Positions 25,205-27,268 of a stretch of 64,000 bases of DNA are shown in pieces; position 1 is the first letter of the stretch, and every line of letters starts with the position of its first letter. Source of the DNA: Lichina pygmaea (taxonomy: Eukaryota; Ascomycota; Lichinomycetes; Lichinales; Lichinaceae); the NCBI GenBank assembly GCA_963422465.1, contig OY730172.1, positions 1,364,001 to 1,428,000 of the forward strand, written 5' to 3'. A program made the translations under genes and the position numbers. The notes below the pieces were generated by a model. It did not search any database, was not told where the DNA came from, and saw only the letters and a list, made by a program, of their open reading frames with translations.

Positions 25205-25375
25205 GCCTATGGTCTGAGAGGCATCGAAACACACGCGGACCTACGAGTACTATGGCGTCACCAGATGGCTTACTAATCACCAATTGTCTGTACGAGTACC
25301 CAGGCGCCGGCAGGCACTGGCAGGCACGATGCAGTAATTAAAGGGGAAGGTCTGGACACCGATGCTTGGTCCAGC

Positions 25376-25540
25376 TGTTAGGATTGCAACACTGCCAAGG
25401 TCCAATCTCGGGAAGGACACGGCGGGCTGCAGAATAGAGGCTGAATAGGGAACTGAGCAGGGGTTGAATTCGTGTATATAGCGAGTGCTTTTTCCCTAAA
25501 GAAATTGATAACGGCTCTTCCCTGCCTCCCAGCTCCAACA
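25376..25540 (+). repeat. 5' LTR
   Basis: 165 bp, TGTTAGGATT at the left and GCTCCAACA at the right. Identical base for base, as read by eye, to the 3' copy at 26712-26876. Confidence 0.95.
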
Positions 25541-25554
25541 GGTTATGAGCCCGG
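25541..25554 (+). other. Primer-binding site (initiator tRNA anticodon region)
   Basis: GGTTATGAGCCCGG, immediately after the 5' LTR. Its complement contains GGGCTCATAACC, the anticodon stem-loop sequence (anticodon CAT) of eukaryotic initiator tRNA-Met. This is the half-tRNA priming mode known for copia and Ty5-like elements, not the usual 3'-end priming. Confidence 0.75.
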
Positions 25555-25613
25555 AATCTGCGCAAGTTGAAGCCGTCCGCCTACCAGCTGCGATAAGCCA
25601 GGTCGTCTGCCAG

Positions 25614-25730
25614 CTACGAGAAGTCTGAGTCGTTCACCAGCTACGAGAAGTCTGAGTCGTTCACCAGCTACGAGAAGTCTGAGTCGTTCACTAGCTACGA
25701 GAAGTCTGAGTCGTTCACTAGCTACGAGAA
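25614..25730 (+). repeat. 27 bp tandem repeat in the retroelement leader
   Basis: Four and a third copies of a 27 bp unit beginning CTACGAGAAGTCTGAGTCGT, nearly identical, differing at one C/T position in CAC(C/T)AG. The last copy is truncated after CTACGAGAAG. It lies between the primer site and the gag start. Confidence 0.93.
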
Positions 25731-25798
25731 GCTAAGTCGGTTTCTGCAGCGAGAAGCAGTCAGTCGGTCAACGAGCAATCCCACCTGCGATCACCGCG

Positions 25799-26686
25799 AT
25801 GTCGGCGTCCACCAGCAAGCTGTCGGTCAGGATTGACCAGCTCACGGCGTACAACTACGACACATGGAAGACGAAGATGGAGATGCTGTTGATCCGGGAG
25901 CGCCTCTGGGCAGTCGTCTCAGAGAAGAAGACGAGGCCTAAGGCGAAAGGAAAAGAAAAGGAGGACTCGGACGAGCCAACGGACACCCAGCTGGCATTTG
26001 ATGAGGAGGCTGAACGAGCAACAGCCACAATCTTTCTCTACCTCAGCGACAGCGTCGGCAGGAACGTACGAGGCATCCGTGATCCAGTCCAACTTTGGAA
26101 GAAGCTACACGACCTGTACGGCCAAACCGGTTTCTCGACTCGCCACTGGCTGTGGCAGCGGCTGTTCAAGGCCGAGCTACGGGGCTACAAGTCGGCGATT
26201 GAGTACACGGAGGAGATACGGTCAATAGCGGAGCAGTTGAAGGACGCAGGCTTTGAGGTCCACGATGAGATCTTGGCCACGGCACTACTGTAAGGATTGG
26301 ATGGGAGCTACAAGGCTTTCGTCTCCTTCACGACCCAGGTTTACCGTACGGACGAAACAATCAGCTTTGATAAGCTGGTTGCCAACATCATTGATGAAAG
26401 TCGGCGGATGGGGTCGGAAGAACAGGAGCTAGAGCGGGCTCTACGAGCTACAGACTCAGCAAAAGGAAAAGGACGATGTGGACACTGTCGGAAGATAGGG
26501 CACCGGAGCAAGAACTGCTGGACGAAACACCCGGAACTTCGACCGAACGACGACTCGGCCTCGGACTCAGATTCGAAGGACGAAACGGACCATCGGAGCA
26601 AGAAGAAAGGGGAAAAGAAGAGACAGCAGCGGAAGCACACAGCCCATCTAGCAGTCACTTCATCATCGTCGGATTTGGTATTCTGA
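25799..26686 (+). pseudogene. Copia-type Gag with one in-frame stop
   Basis: A 295-codon reading frame runs from the ATG at 25799 to a stop at 26684-26686, broken once by TAA at 26291-26293 (after residue 164). The first part has the Gag signature of copia elements (LTAYNYDTWKTKMEMLL, a PVQLWKKLHDLYG block). The second continues in the same frame with GLDGSYKAFVSF and ends with a CX2CX4HX4C zinc knuckle (CGHCRKIGHRSKNC) followed by a Lys/Asp-rich tail. One base change explains the stop. Either this copy is dead for Gag, or the stop is read through; the sequence alone does not decide. Confidence 0.88.
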
Positions 26687-26711
26687 CAACCCTGCCAGTG
26701 TTGAGGGGGGG

Positions 26712-26876
26712 TGTTAGGATTGCAACACTGCCAAGGTCCAATCTCGGGAAGGACACGGCGGGCTGCAGAATAGAGGCTGAATAGGGAACTGAGCAGGGGT
26801 TGAATTCGTGTATATAGCGAGTGCTTTTTCCCTAAAGAAATTGATAACGGCTCTTCCCTGCCTCCCAGCTCCAACA
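26712..26876 (+). repeat. 3' LTR
   Basis: 165 bp, identical by eye to the 5' LTR, preceded by the polypurine tract TTGAGGGGGGG at 26701-26711. Confidence 0.95.
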
Positions 26877-26881
26877 CCAGC

Positions 26882-27268
26882 TCATAATCTCATTTCTCAC
26901 ATGATCCTTGATACAAAGCAACCTCAAATAAGGAACAGACTACCCCCAGTCTAAACGTGTAGGTAGAGTCAACTGAAGGACACAAGTGGGGATTTGAGGT
27001 ACGGAAGTGGAGATTAAAGTACTCAAGCGGAGATATGTGAATTAAGGATTCTGGCATCACCACCACCACCATTACCCAACCAACTCTAGATCTTGGCCCC
27101 CAAAGCCCTGTCTCCCCCCCCCCCCCCCCCCCCAGCAAGCTTTTGCCCTACATGGCATGGGGAATGGATAGGGTATTGATGGTGTATTGGAATGAACGTC
27201 TCTTCCACATCTCTCCCGCTACCCTCGATCCCATCTCGTCAATCCTATATGGTGGATTGACCCCCTCC
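26882..27268. other. Spacer between retroelement and transcription-factor gene
   Basis: 3' flank of the Zn2Cys6 gene: CACCAC repeats near 27058-27075 and a 20 bp poly(C) run at 27114-27133. I see no gene. Confidence 0.6.
27114..27133. repeat. Poly(C) tract, 20 bp
   Basis: Uninterrupted run of C about 135 bp beyond the stop codon of the Zn2Cys6 gene. Confidence 0.9.

Follow-up and report, generated by a model that had tools for sequence, protein, structure and literature searches.

The genome of Lichina pygmaea contains a family of copia-type LTR elements that encode Gag and no pol, and we hold almost without reservation that this is a genuine gag-only family. We propose, with moderate confidence, that it is a half-tRNA-primed copia family of the TR-GAG type, with at least 14 complete copies, and that its mobilisation takes place in trans, with a different copia family (family A below) as the most likely helper. 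The genome comprises 32.5 Mb in eight contigs (referred to as C1, C2 and so on). One copy lies in the window, i.e. the whole 64,000-nt stretch that was analysed (C4:1364001-1428000).

The initial annotation had placed this copy at 25371-26881, and these boundaries proved to be exact. The identical LTRs that it had read by eye, the perfect target duplication, the primer site and the purine tract were all recovered by computation (Table 1). The element body runs from 25376 to 26876. The interior (25541-26711), put at 1.17 kb before, measures 1,171 bp and is made up of a leader with repeats, followed by a single gag frame; a copia-type Gag was the sole recognised protein, without pol, as annotated. 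The element had also been called structurally intact. This is true of the LTRs, the duplication, the primer site and the purine tract, but not of gag, in which a nonsense codon after 164 codons splits the frame. In Pfam, the first piece of gag matched Retrotran_gag_2 (E 4e-21) as well as DUF4219 (E 5e-7). For the second, no Pfam match exceeded the cut-off (the sub-threshold matches were CTU2, E 0.0089, and zf-CCHC_6), and neither piece matched a pol domain in Pfam. With no differences between its LTRs, the window copy is a recent insertion, as had been suggested. The arrangement is far beyond chance: the 165-nt repeat is identical, and the complete unit recurs at 13 further places, of which 12 show a perfect 5-bp duplication of their own. 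Next to the element, the intergenic DNA contains a run of 20 C (27114-27133).

Table 1. Features of the gag-only element in the window (positions are those of the window).
Feature	Position	Strand	Remarks
Target-site duplication CCAGC, left copy	25371-25375		5 bp, perfect
5′ LTR	25376-25540	+	165 bp, TGTT...AACA, 100% identical to 26712-26876
Primer-binding site GGTTATGAGCCCGG	25541-25554	+	complements last 14 nt of the 39-nt 5′ half of initiator tRNA-Met
Leader tandem repeats, ~27 bp	25602-25736	+	6 motifs in the window copy
gag frame, 295 codons	25799-26686	+	broken in the window copy by in-frame TAA, 26291-26293
CX2CX4HX4C zinc knuckle (CGHCRKIGHRSKNC)	26477-26518	+	sequence reading; Pfam zf-CCHC_6 E 0.094, below cut-off
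Polypurine tract GAGGGGGGG	26703-26711	+	abuts 3′ LTR; 13-mer GAGGGGGGGTGTT common to copia family A
3′ LTR	26712-26876	+	165 bp
Target-site duplication CCAGC, right copy	26877-26881		5 bp, perfect

In the whole-element search of the genome, 40 of 62 candidates were scored, and the copy numbers are lower bounds. Among the 22 matched places that we read (L001-L022, the window copy being L001), 14 had two complete LTRs (L001-L010 and L012-L015). The other eight copies (L011, L016-L022) were partial or interrupted and were left out of the 14-copy counts. All 14 complete copies were 1,410-1,502 bp long, and 13 were flanked by perfect 5-bp duplications, all mutually different. Thus, other gag-only copies with differing target duplications, for which the initial annotation had advised a search, do exist, its view of a non-autonomous gag-only element was borne out, and the element is one of a multi-copy family; the outcome that it had named as contrary, with all the other copies full length and carrying pol, was not observed. 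Solo LTRs were also present. Perfect 5-bp duplications were seen at 12 of the 16 solo LTRs read, from at least 17 listed (C1:4866567 was excluded from the 16). The number of substitutions between the two LTRs was zero in five copies (L001-L005) and ranged from 2 to 8 in the other nine; L002, L003 and L004 were identical along the element. The leader repeats numbered 3 to 6 motifs across the 14 copies, and the difference in their number makes the window copy 54 bp longer than L002. We considered the repeats as an RNA packaging structure, but this was unsupported, since the leader of the window copy folds less stably than its own shuffles (z +3.26).

Of the 14 complete copies, 8 have an open gag frame of 292-296 codons. 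The window copy and L008 stop at one and the same codon, and L010 and L013 share a stop at another codon; in L009 a different frame continues beyond the normal end, and L014 has three stops. Across the 14 copies we counted 158 variants in gag, 130 of which were of the C-to-T type (on either strand), and 102 of these 130 were in CpG. Such an excess is as expected from decaying methylated cytosines, a methylation that the variants would predict. The synonymous share at CpG was equal between observed variants (37/102) and possible changes (46/132), and synonymous changes were not enriched in shared variants (30/84) relative to singletons (29/74). Therefore, purifying selection on gag was not demonstrated within the 14-copy family by either comparison. 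The NG86 dN/dS values were 0.19-0.79 in the differing pairs of intact copies, except for L005-L007 (2.61 on 10 differences); they are weak evidence either way because of the CpG mutation bias.

These results bear on whether gag matters at all. It is conceivable, if rather unlikely, that gag is carried as a dead passenger, the RNA being enclosed by family-A Gag, so that only the primer site, the purine tract and the LTRs count. The window copy, newly inserted and with gag disrupted, would fit this reading, as would the second copy that stops at the same codon and the lack of detectable purifying selection within the family. The stop shared with L008 is only suggestive that a copy with a broken gag has moved, since recurrent mutation is possible. 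In addition, the stop of the window copy may postdate its insertion, and the eight open frames and the dN/dS values below one, the L005-L007 pair excepted, also argue against a dead passenger.

The initial annotation had expected an autonomous partner sharing both the LTR and the primer site. We searched for such a partner (40 of 79 candidates scored), without finding one, and surveyed the places in the genome that match RVT_2, the copia reverse transcriptase; all 16 candidates of the latter search were scored, and several of them may be parts of one element. Within 1.5-kb flanks, none of the 16 RVT_2 places had the LTR of the gag-only family as its own. The primer-site part of the expectation held, for two copia families that we call A and B, and the LTR part did not. 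By their DNA, the RVT_2 places were divided into seven of family A (L059-L062, L065-L067), four of family B (L063, L064, L068, L070) and five diverged relics (L069, L071-L074). The relics had about 30-37% protein identity to family A and belong to one or more other copia lineages. The gag-only LTR was found in the flanks of a single RVT_2 place, L065. It was rejected as a partner: the LTR there is a solo LTR in reverse orientation, located within a family-A LTR and flanked by its own duplication GGGTT. The coordinates of this nested solo LTR are C1:3259000-3259164.

The Gag of the gag-only family was about 24% identical to that of family A and 26% to that of family B, and the genome search for gag found no pol-linked gag nearer than 29%. 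A closer Gag match (46%), a candidate for an older gag-only relative, was found at L084, a decayed relic without recognisable LTRs; its 2.8 kb contained no match to the pol of A or B. Another place, L085 (C3:4016173-4016592), has a 288-aa frame; its Gag and that of family B are 41.5% identical, and no LTR pair was recognised in 3 kb. It is possibly a stranded or adopted gag.

The gag-only lineage is distinct from those of A and B, from which we infer that an autonomous ancestor must have existed. The family could thus have arisen by deletion from an autonomous cognate, a copia element bearing this LTR, that would be present in other strains, unassembled or lately lost. In copia polyproteins the gag part runs on into protease, and the gag frame of our family ends where this passage would lie. 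The five diverged reverse transcriptase relics, which come from some lineage other than A and B, also agree with a lost cognate. However, its LTR was not seen as the own LTR of any RVT_2 place, and no pol-linked gag passed the 29% mark. We regard this explanation as rather unlikely.

Family A shares several short features with the gag-only family. A 17-mer made up of the LTR end and the primer site (CAACAGGTTATGAGCCC) occurred exactly 36 times in the genome, i.e. 12 times in the gag-only family and 23 times at A-type places, with one left over; allowing up to two mismatches there were 48 occurrences, compared with 3 in the reversed control. The 13-mer at the junction of the purine tract and the LTR occurred 34 times, compared with 2 in the reversed control, and was divided among the gag-only family (11), A-type places (18) and five left over. 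A place was counted as A-type if A-type matches (LTR, gag, rve or RT) lay near it. The LTRs of family A also have the ends TGTT...AACA, and the two A elements that we read have 5-bp duplications (GTCAT and GGCTA). The LTR body is unrelated. The gag-only elements are thus not members of family A, with which they share neither the LTR nor the Gag lineage; what they have in common is limited to the primer site, the purine-tract junction and the LTR ends.

One element of family A (C2:736703-741627) combines RVT_2 and rve in a 1,436-aa frame that is uninterrupted and includes position C2:737737. Over 3.3 kb, this element and a copy on C5 are 99.8% identical in DNA; the C5 copy has a split frame and LTRs that are 99.5% identical. 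The near identity of the two copies, the intact frame on C2 and the similar LTRs on C5 indicate that family A has moved recently. A shorter form of family A was also found. The searches for family-A LTRs (40 of 92 candidates scored) and for rve (150 of 923) give lower bounds. At least 13 places lack an RVT_2 match but have rve in one open frame of 937-952 aa, preceded by an exact copy of the 17-mer; both family-A LTRs are present at at least 10 of these 13 places, 3,260-3,291 bp apart from start to start. In L088 (part of C7:3081026-3084509), the one of these places that was read in part, about 1.4 kb is missing, corresponding to the RT and most of the RNase H, and 6 bp are common at the junction. 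Judging from frame length and position, all 13 places are probably Gag-PR-IN forms. A different arrangement was observed at C4:959400-963000 (L080/L061), where a family-A element has an 814-aa frame joining Gag to RT/RNase H; the integrase stretch of A is missing and about 0.5 kb of DNA separates the two parts of its 3′ LTR. We also considered a second gag-only family within A. At the one place read, L082, this was rejected, as the frame comes from the protease-integrase side of A; further A-type places contain an integrase frame.

The primer site of the gag-only family is complementary to nucleotides 26-39 (our count) of the initiator tRNA-Met gene on C5, as is characteristic of hemiviruses. 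In hemiviruses such as copia and Ty5, half-tRNA priming begins within the anticodon stem-loop, at nucleotide 40, according to the available text of PMC1181622; the tRNA half of our family ends at nucleotide 39 by count, next to that position. As the primer site matches the anticodon arm of the initiator tRNA-Met, priming by the 5′ half of this tRNA would be expected. The primer site is thus the same as in hemivirus-type copia elements (Drosophila copia, Ty5; PMC1181622), whereas the gag-only family lacks the pol genes by which a copia-type element is recognised. Because pol is absent, the family could be classified by its Gag and cis sites only.

We found two initiator tRNA-Met genes, at C5:2089016-2089177 on the forward strand (L089, L091) and at C7:2656559-2656720 on the reverse strand (L090, L092). 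Both appear to be interrupted by a putative intron-like insert of 90 nt in the T loop, with the ends GTGAGT...AG (the spliceosomal GT-AG type). With the insert removed, ARAGORN folded both genes into complete tRNA-Met(CAT) cloverleaves; with the insert kept, it found neither gene in the whole-gene stretches, even when introns in the anticodon loop were allowed. The T stem shows a paired change across the insert between the two genes (CTCCG/CGGAG and CTTCG/CGAAG). As a counter-result, the Rfam tRNA model matched the 5′ part of the C5 gene, in a stretch cut before the 3′ exon, with 32.5 bits (gathering 29). This match pairs the acceptor stem with bases within the insert, with mismatches. The C7 stretch, also cut before the 3′ exon, scored 24.3, below gathering. 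A genome pattern search for the uninterrupted initiator 3′ half gave one match with 3 mismatches, compared with 3 in the reversed control. The pattern of the 5′ half, with up to 3 mismatches, matched these two genes only, and no uninterrupted copy was found. Nuclear tRNA introns are mostly located one nucleotide 3′ to the anticodon (PMC4090602, available part), and our literature search revealed nothing on point about T-loop inserts of this sort, including in the available text of PMC6108506. The interrupted initiator tRNA genes are possibly worth a study of their own.

For the mobilisation that we favour, driven by family A, the steps would be as follows. Movement in trans is suggested by the recent copies that lack pol. 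The gag-only RNA probably enters particles, for which the family's own Gag may provide the protein. Reverse transcription would be primed by the initiator tRNA half at the primer site, and the RNA would be copied in trans by the RT of family A. The integrase of family A might then insert the cDNA, which would produce 5-bp duplications as in A. The common primer site, purine-tract junction, LTR ends and duplication length count for this proposal. The unrelated LTR body, the low Gag identity, the presence of the same primer site in family B and the lack of detectable purifying selection on gag count against it.

A more far-reaching version seems quite unlikely to us. The family may be an orphan, long-lived one that forms its own particle and, by way of two conserved cis sites, recruits the RT and integrase of another copia lineage, the setting being a genome in which the RT-less form of A is commoner than the full-length form. 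If this were true, mobility would be split among partial elements, and one or a few full-length copies would supply the RT.

Family B is a very improbable supplier of the enzymes. It has the same 14-nt primer site (its 17-mer differs by one mismatch; C4:738090) and a Gag slightly nearer to ours than that of A. However, its purine-tract junction is AAGTGGGAGTGTT, unlike that of the gag-only family, and we saw no gag-pol frame free of interruptions: at its four RVT_2 places the frames reach at most 564 aa, some with stops, and the one element read through its coding part has split frames of 601, 220 and 564 aa. Finally, we found nothing to support a single deletion event inside a full-length element, and 14 similar-sized copies with two complete LTRs, 13 of them with perfect and differing duplications, effectively rule it out.

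Other kinds of non-autonomous LTR elements resemble the gag-only family in part. TRIM and LARD elements are small or non-coding non-autonomous LTR elements that have a primer site and a purine tract and are not known to carry gag; the two sites are found in both, whereas gag is a feature of the gag-only family. BARE-2 is described as having pol but no functional gag. If our proposal is right, the gag-only family is likewise a non-autonomous LTR element that relies on the proteins of another element. However, it is the reverse of BARE-2, with gag kept and pol absent, and its presumed donor is from a distant lineage. The parasitism between BARE-1 and BARE-2 is named in the available text of PMC8704663.

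The closest counterpart is TR-GAG, the terminal-repeat retrotransposons with a GAG domain of plants, for example AT5TE33540 of ATCOPIA63 in Arabidopsis, the movement of which was shown in ddm1 (PMC8704663, available text). The anatomy of our family is that of the TR-GAG description, and it is therefore a known kind of element. It has the two LTRs, the primer site, the purine tract and the target duplication. A single Gag-encoding frame is present in 8 of the 14 complete copies, the window copy having an in-frame stop, and pol is lacking throughout the family, as judged from the narrow length range of the 14 copies and the 16 RVT_2 places, none with such an LTR of its own. In Arabidopsis, too, two LTRs and a single Gag frame without pol make up an element that is mobile despite lacking most proteins (PMC8704663). 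The differences are that the genome is fungal here, that Gag has 295 codons compared with 562 in AT5TE33540, and that AT5TE33540 has a potentially autonomous relative of high similarity (PMC8704663), whereas none with the gag-only LTR was found here. By their titles, the TR-GAG papers found in our literature search all concern plants. Our literature search, mostly without subscription journals, found no gag-only family in fungi, and fungal cases may be reported. Non-autonomous LTR elements of fungi are mentioned in general in the available part of PMC3248453, and no mobilisation of clearly non-autonomous copies is reported for Cryptococcus neoformans in that of PMC12810828.

What is distinctive in L. 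pygmaea is that no partner with the same LTR was found and that the cis sites are common to a distant lineage. A small, lately active, multi-copy gag-only family thus occurs in a compact fungal genome together with one uninterrupted full-length candidate for the donor. This makes a general question testable, namely what a non-autonomous LTR element must share with its helper. It appears that the primer site and the purine-tract/LTR junction are needed in common, and neither the LTR body nor the Gag lineage.
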